In this document: one piece after another, positions 1,606 through 9,118 of the stretch
Layout: every line of letters begins with the position of its first letter
Numbering within the stretch: position 1 is the first letter of the stretch
NCBI GenBank assembly: GCA_029941865.1
Contig: JAPYTO010000052.1
Coordinates: forward strand, 1 to 32,647
Source of the DNA: Fuerstiella sp.
Lineage (GTDB): Bacteria > Planctomycetota > Planctomycetia > Planctomycetales > Planctomycetaceae
Reading direction: 5' to 3'
DNA length: 32,647 nt
Notes under the pieces: model-generated
What the model was told of the DNA's origin: nothing
Databases searched by the model: none
What the model saw: only the letters and a program-made list of their open reading frames with translations
Translations under genes and position numbers: made by a program

Positions 1606-1830
1606 TGATGTTTCGTAGTCCATTCATTGTCGTCTCAATGACCACCGGAACACGGGAACTCGCAACTTCAAGGACGCTGGTTTGGGGCCGATAATTTCGT
1701 GAGCGGTGTAGTCGCCCCTTGTTCTGTGTATAAACGATGTCATGCGGGATTTCATTGGTCGAATATCGAAATGCAGATCACCCATGTGTCGGCTACGGGC
1801 GCAGTTATCGAATGGTTGTAACCCTGGAAA

Positions 1831-1925
1831 GGGTGGCCGGGGTTGGAGCGAGGTACGAGTGAAACCCCGAGGCCGGCAGTGCCGGTTTGATTCTCCTTCG
1901 CAAGCTCAGTCCAGCCCCACCCACC
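1831..1925 (-). repeat. Dispersed ~95-bp palindromic element, copy 1 (minus orientation)
   Basis: This is the reverse complement of the elements at 9162-9259 and 27966-28059. The most conserved part reads, on the minus strand, GGACTGAGCTTGCGAAGGAG followed by AATCAAACCGGCACTGCCGG. The ends form an imperfect inverted repeat (GGGTGGCCGGGGTTGGA against TCCAGCCCCACCC). It lies just before the gene starting at 1970 and happens to be open in that gene's frame, which gives a false N-terminal extension. Confidence 0.8.
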
Positions 1926-1969
1926 GGTCCCAAACCACGAACCGTTACTGCACCCGTCAGCTAGTGCGA

Positions 1970-3787
1970 ATGGGGGCAGTGTTGTGTATTGTCCTTTTCC
2001 TGTCGGTCGCCGCTTCCGCGCATCCCGTGTCAGTGTCTCGTTCGCTGGTGTACGTTGCTGGCGACGAAGTTCGCGTTACCGTCGAAGTCTTTCTGGAAGA
2101 CCTGTTTCTGTTTCACGACCTGCAGCCCAACGTGGCGGACTATTTGGATGCGGACACCATTCAACAGGGAATCGAACTGCATCGCGTGTTCGTTGTCGAC
2201 CGCTTTGTTATCCAGAATGTTGACGGCCACCGACTGCAGGTCAGGCAGCCCGTCGACGTGACTTTTGACATTCCGGACGGTGGTGTAGCGCTGGCCGAAT
2301 TGATGTCGCACAAGTTGACGTTCCAGCTGCGATACCTGCTGGAAGCAGCGCCCGAGTTTCTGACGTTCAGTCAGCGATTTTCCGGTGACGATGGAGTTCT
2401 GCCCGCAGAAATGCAGCTGACGGTGAAACAGGAAGGCGGTGATGTGCTGCATGACAAAGCACTTGTGACCGGTGTTCCCGTCACGTTGCGGTTTACGTGG
2501 GACGGACCGGCGCTTTCTGACAAGTCATCCGATAAGGAACGAGCGGTGTGGCTGGCGCAGGAACAGCAGAAGACTCTGGGTCTTACCAGCTACAGCTCTG
2601 TGTATTCGTTTCTATATGTCGAAGACTTTGAAGTACGCCACGAAATTCTGATACCGCTGCTGACTCTGCAGCAAATCATCACATTGCCCCACGATGGCGA
2701 TGAATTCTTCAGCCTTGCAGAGCAGCACGCGGCAGCACCGCTGATTGCTGATCATTTTCGTACTGGTAACCCCGTCCTGATCGACGGCGTGGAATCGGAA
2801 GCGGTCGTGAGCCGTTGTGACTTCTATGGTCTGGACTTCCGGGATCTGGCCCGTCGTGCAGAACCACAACAAGTGTCGCTGTCCAGTGCTCGGGTGGGCA
2901 TCATCCTGTCGTATCCCCTTCAACAGGCAGCCTCACACGTGCGGTTGCAGTGGGATCGATTCGCGAAGATGTTGTGGTCTGTCAACGTCGTGGTATTTGA
3001 CGGTACCGGCGGTTTTCGAAAAACGCTGACCAGAGTTGGAGGAAACGACACCGTTGAATGGAATTCGGGAGTGCGAAAAAGTCTGCCGCACGTGCAGGTG
3101 GTTCCTGCGCAACCTGCGCGGCGACCGGCGTTCGATATTTCGGCGATTTCTGTGGGCCTGCTGCTGCTTACGATGGTCGTGGTGGGACGTAAGGTTGCGA
3201 AAGTCGGCAGGGGTCGACGAACGGCAGTGGCCGTTGTGGTTTTGCTGGGATGTGCGTGGGGCTGCCGGGACACCGACGTTGGAAAGTTAACCGTGCCCAC
3301 CGGCCCGCGACCGTCCATCACAGATGATGCCGCGGCTGCCGTCTTCGCAACTCTGCACGCCAACATCTACACGGCGTTTCGATTTCGAACAGAAAGCGAC
3401 ATTTACGATGCGCTGGCCTTTAGCGCCAGCGGCGACGTGCTGCAGGACACTTACCTGACAATCGTCGAGGGCTTGAAAATGGAGGAGCAGGGCGGTGCGG
3501 TGGCGCGAGTGCGACAGGTGGATATTCTGAACGGCCATCGCAGCGACCTTTCCGACCAGTCACGTTCTGATCAGCTGCCTGAGGGCTTCGCATATCGATG
3601 TCGCTGGAATGTTGCCGGCACGGTGGAACACTGGGGACACATCCATGAGCGTACAAATCAGTTTGCAGCCGATTTCCGTGTCGAGTCGGTCGGGGGAAAC
3701 TGGAAAGTAACGCACATCGATATTGTCGACAATCGCCGCCTGCACTTTTCGACAGGCCTGCGTGAACTGTTGGGACCGGTGGATTGA
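1970..3787 (+). CDS. Secreted/membrane-anchored protein of unknown function, first gene of the ExbB/ExbD-like cluster
   Basis: I do not recognise the family. From ATG 1970 the protein is 605 residues and begins with a clear signal peptide (MGAVLCIVLFLSVAASAHP), so residues ~20-390 should be outside the cytoplasm. That part is rich in predicted beta strands (LVYVAGDEVRVTVEVFLEDLF). Two hydrophobic segments follow (about 400-420, ISAISVGLLLLTMVVVG, and 432-450, TAVAVVVLLGCAWGC). A C-terminal domain (~470-605) contains HWGHIHERTNQFAADF and GGNWKVTHIDIVDNR and has the feel of an NTF2-like or other small alpha/beta fold. The frame is open upstream to 1742, but that stretch contains a dispersed repeat and no family-like sequence, so 1970 (or GTG 1964) is preferred. 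It is co-directional with the channel genes, 391 bp upstream, so shared function is an inference from position. Confidence 0.8.
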   Translation: MGAVLCIVLFLSVAASAHPVSVSRSLVYVAGDEVRVTVEVFLEDLFLFHDLQPNVADYLDADTIQQGIELHRVFVVDRFVIQNVDGHRLQVRQPVDVTFDIPDGGVALAELMSHKLTFQLRYLLEAAPEFLTFSQRFSGDDGVLPAEMQLTVKQEGGDVLHDKALVTGVPVTLRFTWDGPALSDKSSDKERAVWLAQEQQKTLGLTSYSSVYSFLYVEDFEVRHEILIPLLTLQQIITLPHDGDEFFSLAEQHAAAPLIADHFRTGNPVLIDGVESEAVVSRCDFYGLDFRDLARRAEPQQVSLSSARVGIILSYPLQQAASHVRLQWDRFAKMLWSVNVVVFDGTGGFRKTLTRVGGNDTVEWNSGVRKSLPHVQVVPAQPARRPAFDISAISVGLLLLTMVVVGRKVAKVGRGRRTAVAVVVLLGCAWGCRDTDVGKLTVPTGPRPSITDDAAAAVFATLHANIYTAFRFRTESDIYDALAFSASGDVLQDTYLTIVEGLKMEEQGGAVARVRQVDILNGHRSDLSDQSRSDQLPEGFAYRCRWNVAGTVEHWGHIHERTNQFAADFRVESVGGNWKVTHIDIVDNRRLHFSTGLRELLGPVD

Positions 3788-4178: not shown

Positions 4179-5492
4179 ATGCGGGGCAAATCGGTGACGG
4201 AAAAGCGAAACACGGCTTCTGGCAGTCTTAGAACCGCGTGTCTGGCGACGATTGCTACAGTGCTGTTTTACGCCGTCGCACCGCACGTGCCAGGCATCTC
4301 TGAGTTCGTAACTCGGTATTTCTGCAGCCACCCGCTGGAGTACATCAGCACGGCCATGTTCTTCACGGGGCTGACAGTTCTGGCGCAAAAACAGGCTCGT
4401 CTGCGCCGCGAACGCAGAATTCTGACGGCGGCTCAATCTCTGCCGCGTCCGTCTCAGGCTGGAATTGATGCACCGTCCACGGGGCACGCCGTCCTGACGG
4501 AGTGGTGTTCTCAGCAGGCGACAACGCTGCACGCAACACATTTATTCTCCAGGATTCGGGAGACGCTGAATTATCTGAAAAGTTCGCACTCCGATGGCCT
4601 GGAGGAACATCTGCGGTACCTTGCGGAACTGGCCAGTGAGCGACTGCACCAGTCCTTTGCTACCATTCGAACCATCACATGGGCCATCCCGATTCTTGGA
4701 TTTCTGGGGACCGTGATCGGAATCACGTTGGCGATCGCGAATGTGACACCAGATCAGCTGGACTCATCGCTGAGCGAAGTCACTGGCGGGCTGGCGGTTG
4801 CTTTCGATACGACGGCTCTGGCACTGGGCATGTCCATCGTTCTGGTGTTTTCGTCGTTTGCGGTTGAACAGTGTGAGCAGACCGTTCTGAATGATGTGGA
4901 ACGTTTCGGCATCGAAGCAATGCTGCCCCATTTCAGCAACGGCGAGTCCGGTGTCGAAAACGCGGAAAATTCCAACGAAGAACTTCTGAAGACACTCGTC
5001 AGGCAGCAGTCCGAAGTCTGGGACGAACAACTGGCGGCATTCCGAAACACGTGGGCCGGACTACTGGATCATCACGCCGACGGACTCCGCCACGCCCTCG
5101 ATGCAGACCTTGACGAGACCTTGACGTTGCACCGAAACGATGCGGCCGACACGCGTGATGCGTACGCTGCAGCACTTCAGGACAGCAGTCAGTCGCTCGT
5201 TGATCGCACGGAACAGCTGTTGGATTCGTTCGAAGATCGTATGTCCAGTTGGCAGGACGCGATCTGCGTGAGTTCGCAGTCAGCCGTTGGGCAGACAGAG
5301 GCCATTCATGAACTGGGAGCCACAATGTTGCGAATGGGCGAATCCGAAGAACGGCTTGTCCGGCTGCAGCAACAGCTCAACGAGAATCTGCAGTCCATCA
5401 ACCTTGTGGACACGATGGAACAAACAGCCAGCAGTCTGACCGCCGCCGTGCATGTTCTGACGGCCAAAACGTCACAACGGAAAGCAGCCTAG
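4179..5492 (+). CDS. MotA/TolQ/ExbB-like proton-channel subunit with long C-terminal tail
   Basis: This is a likely ion-channel subunit of a proton-driven stator in the inner membrane. It is 437 residues with hydrophobic segments at ~17-38, ~54-70, ~167-190 (WAIPILGFLGTVIGITLAIA) and ~203-228 (GLAVAFDTTALALGMSIVLV). The last two are the signature of the MotA/TolQ/ExbB superfamily, including the GFLGTV and AFDTTALAL segments that line the ion path. Residues ~230-437 are a long, largely helical acidic/Gln-rich tail, unlike TolQ/ExbB (about 230-245 residues) and reminiscent of tailed MotA-like proteins such as ZorA. GTG 4194, with GGGG just upstream, is an alternative start. The stop is 9 nt before the next gene, whose product has an ExbD-like anchor, so an operon is likely. 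Its role and the cargo it works on are unknown. Confidence 0.85.
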   Translation: MRGKSVTEKRNTASGSLRTACLATIATVLFYAVAPHVPGISEFVTRYFCSHPLEYISTAMFFTGLTVLAQKQARLRRERRILTAAQSLPRPSQAGIDAPSTGHAVLTEWCSQQATTLHATHLFSRIRETLNYLKSSHSDGLEEHLRYLAELASERLHQSFATIRTITWAIPILGFLGTVIGITLAIANVTPDQLDSSLSEVTGGLAVAFDTTALALGMSIVLVFSSFAVEQCEQTVLNDVERFGIEAMLPHFSNGESGVENAENSNEELLKTLVRQQSEVWDEQLAAFRNTWAGLLDHHADGLRHALDADLDETLTLHRNDAADTRDAYAAALQDSSQSLVDRTEQLLDSFEDRMSSWQDAICVSSQSAVGQTEAIHELGATMLRMGESEERLVRLQQQLNENLQSINLVDTMEQTASSLTAAVHVLTAKTSQRKAA

Positions 5493-5501
5493 TTAACAAA
5501 C

Positions 5502-7910
5502 ATGGCTCGGCGAAGACATCAAAACGCAATTTCGTTGTTTCCCTTTCTTGCAGTCCTGGTCTGCACGATGGGAGCGTTGATCCTGTTGCTGTTGGCGACC
5601 ACCAGACGAATTCGTAACGATCAGCGGCATGCTCAGCTTGTTCAAGTCGATCAACGCCCGTCACAGCCGTCCGGGTTCGCAACGCCGTTGTCGTCCGATT
5701 CCGGTGATGATCTCGAGGCGATTGGCCTGACTCCGTTTGCTGATGAATCTCTGTTCGACAGAGACGGATCTCTGGTCACTCCGCAGACCGTCATCACCAG
5801 CCCGAAGATTCCCGGCGTGAATCGCGATCATTTCGCCGCCGCGGCTCAGCAAACAAAGATCGAAGGTCTTCAGGATTCGTTGGCAGACGAATCGGAGCGT
5901 CACCGGTTGTTGCGACGTCAGGTGGACAGTGCCAAAGGCGAACTGAAGACTTACTCGCCTGAGCAGGATGACGATCAGGCGGGAATGGGGGAACTTAACG
6001 CGTTGCGCACGCAGAAGATCAGGCTGACAGAGGAACTGAGTCGCAGAAACCAGGATCTGTCTCAACTGCAATCGGCACTCGAAACGAGTTCGGAAAAGGC
6101 CGAACAGGCCGAGAACATTCTGTCGTCGCGCGAGTCCGCTTTGATCAGCCTGCGGCAAATTGCCAAACAGACTGAACAGCGGGCACACGATGTGGGCACT
6201 GACCAGACCATTGTTGAATTCACAAACAGTACCGGAACTCGGCGCTCCCCTATTCTGATCGACGTGACAAAAAACGGTTTCGAATTCCAGCCAGCCGGAA
6301 TAACGGTGACAGCAGCGGATATGCAGGGCTTTCCCAGCAACGACAACCCGTTGATATCAGGAATTCTGGGCCTGCACGAATGGCGGCATGGCGGTTCTCT
6401 GTCAGTGAAACCCTACGTTCTGTTGCTGGTGCGATCGGACGGCAGCCTTCCGTTCTATGCCGCCCAGCGATTTCTGACGCAGGCGGGCATACATTTTGGT
6501 TACGAGCTGCTTGAGCAGGGCAAACATATTTCGGCAGGCCAATTGGATACTGATGAACGGAACGCTGTACGCGACGCGGTGCTGTCGTCTTTGACGCGTC
6601 GACAGCATCTGTACGGTGGCGTGGTGAGCAGAATTCAAATGCGACCTGATCCACGGACGACGTCGAAGTCACGGCAGGCGCGAGTCCTGCCGGATGGGCG
6701 AGTGCTGTTCGGCGATGAACTCAATAATGTCACTGACGGCCGGTTCTATGCTGGCGGCGAAGCACCTCCTGCACGGCGTCGGTTTGCTGCAACACCACCG
6801 AACGAACGTGTTGACCCGAACAGATTTCCTGGCAGTCGCGACGATACCGTTGCAAATTCCGGCCGAGCAACTGACGAATGGTCATCAGGTTTTCGCGCTG
6901 ACGACAGCCAACCAGTGGATGCTCAGTCACATCTGCCTCGCGCGGAGGAGCATGACAACCATGACGTTGTGATTGTGCCACGAGCGACTGTTGATGACGG
7001 TCATGGCAATGCGTCAGGCACTGCGGAATTCGAAGTGGCCGAACGTGACGTGCGACAGTCTCTGTCGAAACAGCGCCTTCTTTCAGGTGACGCGGAAATT
7101 AGTGATGACGCCTCCGTTGCACCGCCGAAAGGCAGTCTAGCCAGCAACGACCCGCAACGATTCAATGCGGTTGATCCTTCAGCCCAGTCCGGCTGGCCGA
7201 CATCCGAGTACGCACACTCCGAGTCGGCAACCCGCACAGCCGGACCGGCTGGGGATCCCGCTTCGTCAGACGTCGCCAACATGATGCCCGGCGCCGTTGT
7301 TGGCAGCACTCCCGGGAGTCCTTCCGAGGTGATGCGGCGTTTTGGAACGCCAGCGACCGAGATGGGGGCCTTCGGAACACCGCAGCAGACCTCCGACTTC
7401 CGGGCCCAACCTGATCCTTTCCTGCGGGCCATGTTGAACGACGGCCGGGGGAAGGCACCTGCGGGACTGATCAGTCGCGTACCCGTCACCGTATTTGTCG
7501 ATGCGACAGCCTTGACGGTCGGTGCTGCAGAAACCATTAACACAGCAGGTTGGGACATCGATCGAATCCTGGCAGCAACACTGCAGGGGTTGTCGCAGGA
7601 GATGAAGTTCGCACCGAGCATCAGCGACGGATATTCGCTGCCCATGGTCCGTTTTGTCGTTGGCCCGGGTGCCAGTTTGACGCAGCTGCAACTGGCAGGA
7701 CAACTGAACCAGGCCGGTATTCCCTGTACGGCGGTGACGGTCGACAGGTCGTATTCACAGGAACGAGTGTTGTTTGAAGGACGACTCGATGCCTGGGAAA
7801 AGGATTCCCAGCCGAAGCCAGAAGTGGACGACAGAGCGGAACCAGCCGAGCCTGTTCCACCATCGGGAATTCTCCGTCCCCCACGTCGCGATCGGAGGCT
7901 TGCCATATGA
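5502..7910 (+). CDS. Large ExbD/MotB-like single-TM coiled-coil protein, subunit lacking the TM Asp
   Basis: The 802-residue protein has a short basic N-terminus (MARRRHQ), one TM helix at ~12-33 (FPFLAVLVCTMGALILLLLA) and then a large presumably periplasmic part. That part has a coiled coil at ~113-230 and a folded domain at ~235-375 (SVKPYVLLLVRSDGSLPFYA, QAGIHFGYELLEQ). A low-complexity Ser/Pro/Asp-rich linker follows at ~380-640, then a second folded domain at ~645-790 (VPVTVFVDATALTV, MVRFVVGPGASLTQLQL). The layout is that of ExbD/MotB-type stator partners, but the place where ExbD has its protonatable Asp (PFIDVM) reads PFLAVL. It starts 9 nt after the channel gene and overlaps the next gene by the ATGA quadruplet, so the three are tightly coupled. 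Function is inferred from layout and context; I do not recognise the domains by name. Confidence 0.8.
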   Translation: MARRRHQNAISLFPFLAVLVCTMGALILLLLATTRRIRNDQRHAQLVQVDQRPSQPSGFATPLSSDSGDDLEAIGLTPFADESLFDRDGSLVTPQTVITSPKIPGVNRDHFAAAAQQTKIEGLQDSLADESERHRLLRRQVDSAKGELKTYSPEQDDDQAGMGELNALRTQKIRLTEELSRRNQDLSQLQSALETSSEKAEQAENILSSRESALISLRQIAKQTEQRAHDVGTDQTIVEFTNSTGTRRSPILIDVTKNGFEFQPAGITVTAADMQGFPSNDNPLISGILGLHEWRHGGSLSVKPYVLLLVRSDGSLPFYAAQRFLTQAGIHFGYELLEQGKHISAGQLDTDERNAVRDAVLSSLTRRQHLYGGVVSRIQMRPDPRTTSKSRQARVLPDGRVLFGDELNNVTDGRFYAGGEAPPARRRFAATPPNERVDPNRFPGSRDDTVANSGRATDEWSSGFRADDSQPVDAQSHLPRAEEHDNHDVVIVPRATVDDGHGNASGTAEFEVAERDVRQSLSKQRLLSGDAEISDDASVAPPKGSLASNDPQRFNAVDPSAQSGWPTSEYAHSESATRTAGPAGDPASSDVANMMPGAVVGSTPGSPSEVMRRFGTPATEMGAFGTPQQTSDFRAQPDPFLRAMLNDGRGKAPAGLISRVPVTVFVDATALTVGAAETINTAGWDIDRILAATLQGLSQEMKFAPSISDGYSLPMVRFVVGPGASLTQLQLAGQLNQAGIPCTAVTVDRSYSQERVLFEGRLDAWEKDSQPKPEVDDRAEPAEPVPPSGILRPPRRDRRLAI
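7894..7898 (+). promoter_or_regulatory. Ribosome binding site GGAGG for the 7907 gene
   Basis: GGAGG lies 8 nt before ATG 7907, inside the end of the preceding gene. It is one of the few canonical Shine-Dalgarno sequences in this window and, with the ATGA overlap, supports the start and translational coupling of the two partner subunits. Confidence 0.7.
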
Positions 7911-9118
7911 CTCGTCGCAGAAGCAATGGCGATCAGGAATTCGGTTCCGATTCGTTTCTTGACATCATTGCCAACATCGTTGGCATTCTGATCATTCTGA
8001 TCGTCGTGGTTGGCCTGCGTGTGGCCCGGCAGCCGGCAGTTGCGGGACCGGCCGAATCAGTCGGCGTTGCTGCTGCGGTCGACGCCGAGATAGCTGCACC
8101 TGCTCCGTCTGATGTGGTCTCGATCGCAGACAACGAGCCGGTCACGTTGGCCTTGAATCCGGCGGTCCTGAACGAACCCCAACCATCAGGCATCGACACA
8201 GCTGCCTTTGACAAACAAATCGAAGACCTGTCGCTGGAATTAACGACTGCCACGGTGAACACCGCCACATCAGAGGCGGAACTGCAGCAACTGCTTGCCG
8301 TATTGGAACAGCAACGCGGCAACGAACAGCTTCAACAGACTCGACGAACAGGTATGAGTCAACAGAAGGCGTTGCTGACCGCGTCAATTTCAGAACTCAA
8401 CGAGTCCGTCGGAGCCACCGAGGCAAAGGCCACAGCATTCGCATCCACATTGTCGTCCCTGAGTAATCGTCAGACGTATATCACGAGTGCTCTGAAACAG
8501 ATCGGCCGGGAAACTCAGCGATTGAGCGAGGTCCTCGAAGCCGTTGAAGAACAGCAGCCAGTCGGGGACCGTCTGCGTCATCGATTGTCGCCGGTCGGTA
8601 GTTCGGTCACGGAAGGTGAAGTCCATTTTCGCCTCAGCAGTGGTCGCATCGCCCACATACCTCTTGAGTCGCTGCTGGATCGATTGAAGGCACAGGTTTC
8701 GGCACGTCGCAGTGTCGTTATGAAATTTCATCGCTACGAGGGCGTGATCGGACCAATTGGCGGATTCCACATGCGGTACACCGTTGAACGACAAACCGTT
8801 TCGCCTCTGCAGGCGCTGCAGTACGGGCAGGGTGCTTACCGCGTGAGCGTTTCGCGTTGGTCGATTCTACCGGCGGAAACACTGGAGGCGGAACCGATGG
8901 AGGCGGCCCTGCGAGTTGGTTCGCGGATGCGTCAGATTATGGAATCGACCGACCCGGACACAGTGATTACGGTGTGGCTGTATCCCAACGACTTCAAGCA
9001 CTTTGGCAGGGTCCGTGAATTCGCCCACGGCCTCAATCTTCGAGTCGCAGCGCGTCCATTACCGAACGGGACGCCCATTGCCGGATCCCCCAACGGCAGT
9101 CGCTCCACGTCGCAGTGA
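7907..9118 (+). CDS. ExbD/MotB-like single-TM coiled-coil protein, subunit keeping the TM Asp
   Basis: The 403-residue protein has a hydrophilic N-terminus and one TM helix at ~17-38 (SFLDIIANIVGILIILIVVV). A linker (~40-95) precedes a coiled coil rich in Glu/Gln/Thr (~100-225), and a C-terminal alpha/beta domain (~235-380) contains VHFRLSSGRIAHIPLESLL and DTVITVWLYPNDFKHF. The Asp at the start of the TM helix aligns with the proton-carrying Asp of ExbD (PFIDVM), so this is the likely protonatable B-type subunit for the channel protein at 4179. It is coupled to the preceding gene by ATGA. I see no OmpA-like peptidoglycan-binding signature, so how it would be anchored is open. It is the last gene of the cluster and is followed by 441 bp of repeats. 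Confidence 0.82.
   Translation: MTRRRSNGDQEFGSDSFLDIIANIVGILIILIVVVGLRVARQPAVAGPAESVGVAAAVDAEIAAPAPSDVVSIADNEPVTLALNPAVLNEPQPSGIDTAAFDKQIEDLSLELTTATVNTATSEAELQQLLAVLEQQRGNEQLQQTRRTGMSQQKALLTASISELNESVGATEAKATAFASTLSSLSNRQTYITSALKQIGRETQRLSEVLEAVEEQQPVGDRLRHRLSPVGSSVTEGEVHFRLSSGRIAHIPLESLLDRLKAQVSARRSVVMKFHRYEGVIGPIGGFHMRYTVERQTVSPLQALQYGQGAYRVSVSRWSILPAETLEAEPMEAALRVGSRMRQIMESTDPDTVITVWLYPNDFKHFGRVREFAHGLNLRVAARPLPNGTPIAGSPNGSRSTSQ

Follow-up and report, generated by a model that had tools for sequence, protein, structure and literature searches.

An operon of one MotA/ExbB-type gene and two unlike ExbD/MotB-type genes in planctomycetes may encode an asymmetric 5:2-type motor

Results

The stretch of DNA analysed here (hereafter the window) is the 32,647-nucleotide (nt) contig JAPYTO010000052.1 of a Fuerstiella sp. 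genome (assembly GCA_029941865.1). Our subject is an operon of three open reading frames (ORFs) on its forward (+) strand, designated A, B1 and B2, which may encode an asymmetric, proton-driven motor. Gene A (4179..5492, +; 437 amino acids) encodes a MotA/TolQ/ExbB-type subunit: the Pfam model MotA_ExbB (PF01618; cut-off 22.9 bits) matches it with a score of 53.4 bits and E 2.8e-14. A 9-nt gap separates A from B1 (5502..7910, +; 802 amino acids), and the end of B1 overlaps the start of B2 (7907..9118, +; 403 amino acids) by 4 nt. From the ORFs, alignments and AlphaFold models, we classify B1 and B2 as ExbD/MotB-type subunits, the first without and the second with an aspartate (Asp) in the transmembrane (TM) helix; each consists of one TM helix, a long coiled coil and one or more periplasmic domains. 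An earlier reading of this DNA from its letters alone (the sequence-only reading) had proposed this gene order and spacing, this domain plan and large coiled-coil parts outside the cytoplasm, and our ORF and profile searches and structural models bear all of these out.

The TM helices of B1 (SLFPFLAVLVCTMGALILLLL) and B2 (DSFLDIIANIVGILIILIVV) align in register (hhalign E 1.3e-4, probability 53%), with FLAVL of B1 over FLDIV of B2. In this alignment, an alanine in B1 (Ala17; codon 5550..5552, +) stands opposite Asp19 of B2 (codon 7961..7963, +), whose conservation marks it as the putative proton-binding residue; the contrast between the two helices drawn in the sequence-only reading is thus confirmed for the window. 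As a control, we examined the nine proteins of this genome that were found to match Pfam ExbD: every one keeps the TM Asp (9/9), and the absence of Asp from B1 is therefore not a habit of the organism.

We followed both positions through 166 loci, of which 80 came from a scan of one genome per species (the best 80 of 234 matches) and 86 from the class survey or first fetch. The latter were hand-picked from the B1 table for family coverage, so that the proportions given here are not those of a random sample. Excluded before the B1 counts were 11 loci without a B1 TM helix in the available DNA, one locus without B1 and the 22 loci of a motor-less family, f81, described below; f81 was also excluded from the B2 Asp count, and one locus (L232) is without B2. 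At L187, L213, L215 and L174 the residues were assigned by visual inspection; one pattern match, at L236, proved false and was discarded. We found that B2 carries the Asp in 81/81 alignment rows and at 143/143 readable motor-type loci. Position 17 of B1 is Ala at 117 of the 132 readable motor-type loci, Thr at four and Ser at two; it is Asp at the other nine, leaving 123/132 non-Asp. Because the same genome was sometimes reached by both routes (e.g. L066/L103, L069/L130), the 132 and 143 loci are not all independent. The Asp/Ala contrast is therefore invariant on the B2 side only: Ala in B1 gives way to Thr or Ser in six loci, and homologues of B1 with an Asp in the same place, which the sequence-only reading had named as evidence against its proposal, do occur, if rarely.

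On a phylogenetic tree, the Asp/non-Asp state of B1 changes four times (the L109 group, L141, L228 and L229). The tree was built with the TM region left out and comprised 135 rows after near-identical rows of the same state had been dropped, 104 of them with a readable state and six of these Asp; it is a quick tree with many weak branches, and gain and loss are not separable by the tree alone. The scattered occurrence of Asp among Ala suggests that the B1 Asp was gained. That an Asp arises at exactly position 17 argues that the B1 helix lies in the channel, and fits a helix that faces the pore.

B1 and B2 are constant partners. At all 163 loci that contain both in separate frames, the two genes are adjacent on the same strand, with B2 after B1 and at most 303 bases between the frames; in the named-genome scan B1 adjoins B2 at 79 of 80 loci, and the contig of the remaining one starts about 100 bases before B2. 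Among 148 genomes of the class, 134 are matched by the B1 profile and likewise 134 by the B2 profile (E<=0.001). By our own tally of the match tables, strong matches (E<=1e-12) number 122 genomes for B1 and 119 for B2, the remainder being weak and doubtful; both genes are strongly matched in 118 genomes, B1 only in four (G271, G272, G274 and G304) and B2 only in one (G330). In each of these five genomes the gene lies at a contig end, where its partner would be cut off, and the other survey pairs split over two contigs also lie at contig ends in those cases that were looked up. We thus saw no independent occurrence of either gene. Operon A lies 5' of B1 on the same strand at 117 of the 166 loci; 22 of the 49 loci without it belong to f81, and most of the others are cut near B1.

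Our main new result, which is independent of the argument from the Asp, is that the stalks of B1 and B2 covary in length. The periplasmic coiled coil comprises residues 108-230 of B1 (5823..6191, +), modelled by AlphaFold as helices, and residues 98-214 of B2 (8198..8548, +), modelled as a helix with a block predicted local distance difference test (pLDDT) score of mostly 93-97. As the length of each stalk we took the spacing between the TM motif and the strand that opens the first periplasmic domain. This measure was chosen after one based on helix propensity had failed: the helix lengths that it gave were weakly correlated (rho 0.31), with a contrast r of 0.03 after correction for kinship. 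The TM-to-domain spacing is about 150-300 residues in both proteins, with medians of 200 for B1 and 198 for B2, and the two spacings are strongly correlated across 102 rows (rho 0.87). Correction for kinship leaves the correlation in place: 101 independent contrasts give r 0.80 with a slope of 0.94, and r is 0.57 when the 10 largest are omitted. In eight control comparisons, in which the stalks were set against the A tail, the A cytoplasmic region, the B1 linker and the B2 domain length, the contrast r ranged from -0.05 to 0.18. The differences in stalk length between B1 and B2 showed no clear heptad pattern. Since equal stalks are kept in two proteins, a parallel heterodimer is the simplest explanation.

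The conserved parts of A lie in its pore and its tail. Residues 164-226 (4668..4856, +) are the TM3-TM4 pore segment, with the motifs GFLGTVIGIT and VAFDTTALAL, as judged by conservation in 115 readable operon A genes: T178, G181 and T212 are each kept in 114 of the 115 and D210 in 112, with two Asn and one Gly in the remainder. The position of Asp210 (codon 4806..4808, +) is occupied by L, F, V or I in the seven proteins compared of the eight other MotA/ExbB proteins of the same genome. We considered whether the Asp missing from B1 had been relocated to Asp210 of A, and found this unsupported as a rule: distant planctomycete motors exist with AF(D/E)TT in A and an Asp in the B chain. In addition, the loci at which residue 210 is Asn (L153, L188) or Gly (L177) still have Ala in B1. 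The C-terminal tail of about 200 residues beyond the last TM helix, already noticed in the sequence-only reading, spans residues 231-437 (4869..5489, +) and has a conserved end, with L400, N403, L404, E414, L420, A422 and L427 invariant in an alignment of 11 sequences.

B1 and B2 were modelled with AlphaFold as single chains, using input alignments of window and named-genome sequences (57 B1, 69 B2). The B2 model (mean pLDDT 84.6) has a TM helix at residues 14-41, a helix at 98-214 and a globular part at about 225-403. The B1 model (mean pLDDT 65.1) has a TM helix at 13-50, helices at 108-230 and domains at 251-337 and 658-746; in both models a low-confidence stretch lies between the TM helix and the helical stalk. 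Periplasmic domain 1 of B1 (residues 251-337; 6252..6512, +) is built of strands and helices with a block pLDDT of 86-97, and is followed by a disordered linker (residues 411-632; 6732..7397, +) in which pLDDT is below 50 almost throughout. Periplasmic domain 2 (residues 658-746; 7473..7739, +) appears to be a diverged duplicate of domain 1 (hhalign E 2.5e-5, probability 75%), and the anchors of the two domains are 191-696 residues apart across 99 loci. The periplasmic domain of B2 (residues 225-403; 8579..9115, +) is defined by alignments and the model, and has the conserved C-terminal pattern RPLP.G.PI.GS..GS.S. Pfam scans of the 57 B1 and 69 B2 sequences list mainly coiled-coil families, and ExbD (PF02472) is absent among the families listed (the best 25 of 80 and the best 25 of 153). 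Similarly, many of the Foldseek matches listed for B1 are coiled coils, with no ExbD entry among them, and the 50 matches listed for B2 include an ExbD entry at E 2.0. The order of strands and helices in both models is compatible with an ExbD-like periplasmic fold; the corresponding hhalign comparisons (E 0.04-0.15) were not significant.

Family f81 (22 loci: L189-L206, L234-L236 and L241) forms a single clade on the tree (20 rows, support 99) and has kept B1-B2 with no A near B1. The sequences of L234 and L235 start less than 750 bases from B1, so that 20 of the loci are informative on this point. B1 and B2 are adjacent in all 21 f81 loci that hold both. The TM motifs are lost in both proteins (22/22 B1, 21/21 readable B2), and the helices remain as hydrophobic anchors. 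When the A profile was run against 18 f81 genomes, the best matches had E values of 4e-15 to 5e-26; in 12 other genomes they were 3e-41 or better. From these results, we conclude that the B1-B2 pair can live without the engine, and that the pore motifs belong to the engine.

A further gene, A-prime, lies 3' of B2 at six loci of the L109 group (e.g. 9158-10432 of L109), and elsewhere in the genome in G289, G297, G323, G338, G339 and G208. All A-prime genes that were read (that of G208 is not among them) have His for Gly181 and Asn for Asp210. The pore motifs of the orphan or displaced A-prime genes at L242, L243, L244, L245, L247 and L109, where operon A is missing, are GTVxH or GTVxHF together with AFN(T/S). 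A-prime occurs in four of the 148 class genomes (at least 477 bits; all other matches have at most 276): three of these are without an A beside B1-B2, and the fourth, G208, has an operon A with an unusual pore (GLLGSALLTA and ALDPT). One upstream neighbour is common to L109, L114 and L161 and to L121 and L138, the latter two being A-B1(Ala)-B2 loci, and one downstream neighbour is common to L109, L161 and L138; these common neighbours indicate that the operon-A and A-prime states exchange at one chromosomal site. Among A-prime lineages, B1 has Asp in three (the L109 group, L228 and L229) and Ala in three (the L115 group, L176 and L212), and among operon-A lineages it has Asp only in L141. We set aside the idea that the B1 Asp arises when A-prime replaces A: the cases are too few, and a test on independent pairs cannot reach significance (5 pairs, median p 0.5).

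The three genes A, B1 and B2 were found in the same order in 10 of 198 other genomes of the phylum sample. Among 199 phylum genomes, strong matches to the B2 profile (E<=1e-60) are confined to the window's class, where they occur in 11 of 12 genomes; the next match elsewhere has E 2.4e-9. In a search for a conserved partner gene, neighbour families recurred in at most 9 of 48 loci, and TonB_C gave no match in the window's genome, which is 90.5% complete (the control search was positive in 3 of 14 genomes). With no TonB_C and no recurring neighbour, a separate transducer is not evident. The region 5' of A (1742-3787 of the window) holds a 681-amino-acid ORF with no Pfam match above cut-off and no NCBIfam match.

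Other three-gene motors were met among the Planctomycetota. One (L072-L076, L081, L237, L238, L240 and L246) has an A with an N-terminal zinc-ribbon-like stretch, where the start is present, and a B1, about 270 residues long, in which Ser occupies the place of the Asp (FPFLS, 8/8 aligned); its B2, where read, carries (L/M)DSLLD and is Asp-bearing. A third type (L078, L037 and L249) combines an A bearing AFETT with two B chains that each carry Asp (F.FQD and LELLLD). At L250 and L251, an A-type gene with GFIGTVEG and AFDST adjoins a B-like chain, DSFVAVVVTKLTGALLF, with Ala instead of Asp after SFV. Judged from these motifs, a putative axle chain without Asp is neither restricted to the window's family nor general.

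Discussion

We propose, with a probability of roughly 0.6, that the operon encodes an asymmetric motor of the 5:2 type, A5:B1:B2 (5:1:1), with one proton site on the axle in most lineages and with B1 as the output arm. The computed observations are the homology of A, the similarity and register of the TM helices, the gene pairing, the co-scaling of the stalks, the constancy of the B2 Asp, the rarity of Asp in B1, and the disappearance of both TM motifs in the family that has lost A. By homology, five A subunits would form a ring. The co-scaling stalks, the similar TM helices and the constant pairing argue that the axle contains one B1 and one B2; the two TM helices would lie side by side in the pore, and the coiled coils would form a parallel heterodimeric stalk of matched length. 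The single axle Asp, on B2 in the window's genome and in most relatives, would be the proton site, with the Asp-less helix acting as a passive bearing. If only B2 bears an Asp, rotation would be predicted to consume about 5 protons per turn in 72-degree steps, as opposed to 10 in 36-degree steps. B1 would be the output chain: its domain 2, tethered by the long disordered linker, might extend through the cell wall, and B1 would thereby do the work of a separate TonB/TolA protein. The sequence-only reading had suggested a heterodimer with a single protonatable site. Of this, the unequal pair is upheld by the unbroken adjacency, the stalk covariation and the TM register, and the single site is contradicted in the lineages that have Asp in B1 (9/132). 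The fuller account, to which we give somewhat less than an even chance, is that of a one-site rotary motor in which a two-site turnstile could not run and 5 protons would pass per turn, with some lineages having gained a second site and one family having kept the axle and dropped the engine.

Several results weigh against this proposal. No ExbD, TolR or MotB model in Pfam, NCBIfam or PADLOC matches B1 or B2 at E<=1, and Foldseek searches of both structural models against the PDB gave nothing at E<=0.001. Comparison with the ExbD periplasmic domain by hhalign was not significant for B1 domain 1 (E 0.15), B1 domain 2 (E 0.037) or the B2 domain (E 0.041), with a probability of at most 1% in these comparisons; the comparison of B1 domain 1 with the B2 domain was likewise not significant (E 0.25), and the TM helices of B1 and B2 aligned with that of ExbD without significance and out of the expected Asp register. 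As for the stalks, some of the control comparisons correlate when uncorrected (rho 0.29 for the B2 stalk with the B1 linker; rho 0.22 for the B1 stalk with the A tail and with the A cytoplasmic region), and within f81 the two stalks have a rank correlation of 0.81, which falls to 0.62 by contrasts and to 0.26 once the 10 largest of the 19 contrasts are removed. In addition, the nine double-Asp loci mean that the single site is not a fixed feature, and, outside the B1-B2 family, AF(D/E)TT in A does not go hand in hand with an Asp-less B chain.

The alternative that survives best, although we consider it unlikely, places a B2 homodimer with two Asp in the ring and makes B1 a TonB/TolA-like transducer with its TM helix on the outside. 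It would account for the absence of Asp from most B1 proteins and for the TonB-like architecture of B1, in which a single TM helix is joined through a long disordered linker to a C-terminal domain; moreover, TonB and TolA attach to the periphery of their motors, according to PMC12204202. A helix outside the ring, however, would not need the Asp that B1 shows in four changes on the tree, the B1 helix aligns in register with that of B2, and a co-scaling of the two stalks at about 1:1 is not predicted by a B2 homodimer that sits beside B1. A little less probable again is that the operon encodes no force-producing motor: B1 and B2 would then form a heterodimeric periplasmic scaffold or sensor, gated or anchored by A, whose basic function proceeds without proton flow. 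The persistence of B1-B2 in f81 after the loss of A and of both TM motifs fits such a scaffold, but the near constancy of the A pore Thr and the B2 Asp wherever operon A is present does not. Finally, we judge it very improbable that B1 and B2 each pair with themselves, as alternative homodimers housed in different A rings; whether heterodimers or homodimers form is described as not known for AglQ/AglS of AglRQS in PMC9389320. In most lineages the axle of a B1 homodimer would lack Asp altogether, and 1:1 stalk scaling and constant gene pairing favour mixing.

If the A5:B1:B2 motor proposed here is correct, the same machine would exist in nature with one site and with two. In the published 5:2 cycle, two equivalent proton sites swap roles every 36 degrees, and 10 ions pass per turn. 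Since most species would have a single axle site and a few relatives two, that two-site cycle becomes testable by comparison and by single-residue changes. The axle and the output arm may be one protein, and f81 would represent an evolutionary endpoint in which the axle outlives the engine. A three-gene operon that is common in one planctomycete class could thus be used to test how such motors turn.

Comparison with known systems

A search of freely available papers, preprints excepted, found no description of an A-B1-B2 operon, and in a 2025 survey of MotAB homologues the non-flagellar relatives are handled as one broad group (PMC12505986). Membership of the Ton system was rejected on the absence of TonB_C from the window's genome (90.5% complete). 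ZorAB of the Zorya defence system is alike in that ZorA profiles match A (best PADLOC E 1.6e-11), and a long tail beyond the last TM helix is also a ZorA trait. The operon differs from ZorAB in its two B genes, neither of which has a ZorB match in PADLOC, and Zorya membership is excluded by the NCBIfam scores of A, which reach 18.3 bits against a required 700 for ZorA2 and 14.7 against 500 for ZorA_4.

The 5:2 motors ExbB-ExbD, TolQ-TolR and MotA-MotB share with this operon an A subunit of the same family and single-pass B chains, with an Asp near the start of the TM helix as in B2. In contrast to these motors, the operon has two unlike B chains, one of them usually Asp-less and both unrecognised by PF02472, stalks of about 200 residues and a conserved 200-residue tail on A.

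In a system of the PVC group, a tolQ-like gene is accompanied by two unlike tolR-like genes and by TPR and vWA genes; a missing Asp is not mentioned for the tolR-like pair in section 8 of that report (PMC12204202). Unlike that TPR-tolQ-tolR-tolR-vWA arrangement, the window has no TPR or vWA domain in the three nearest flanking genes, which are those that were scanned for domains. AglRQS, the gliding motor of Myxococcus xanthus, likewise has one A-type gene followed by two unlike B-type genes. As described in PMC9389320 and PMC3169522, AglQ and AglS both have the conserved Asp and both match Pfam ExbD, whereas B1 usually has Ala at this position (Ala17 in the window), has no ExbD match, and has a long stalk and tandem domains. 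The Ala17 of B1 and the absent ExbD match rule out membership of AglRQS.

GldLM, which serves gliding and type IX secretion in the Bacteroidota, is a 5:2 motor whose proton site, GldL E49, is on the A-type subunit, according to PMC8986121. It resembles the motor proposed here in that B-type chains need not bear the proton site; it differs in having a single B-type chain, GldM, whereas the operon described here has two, and keeps the Asp on B2.

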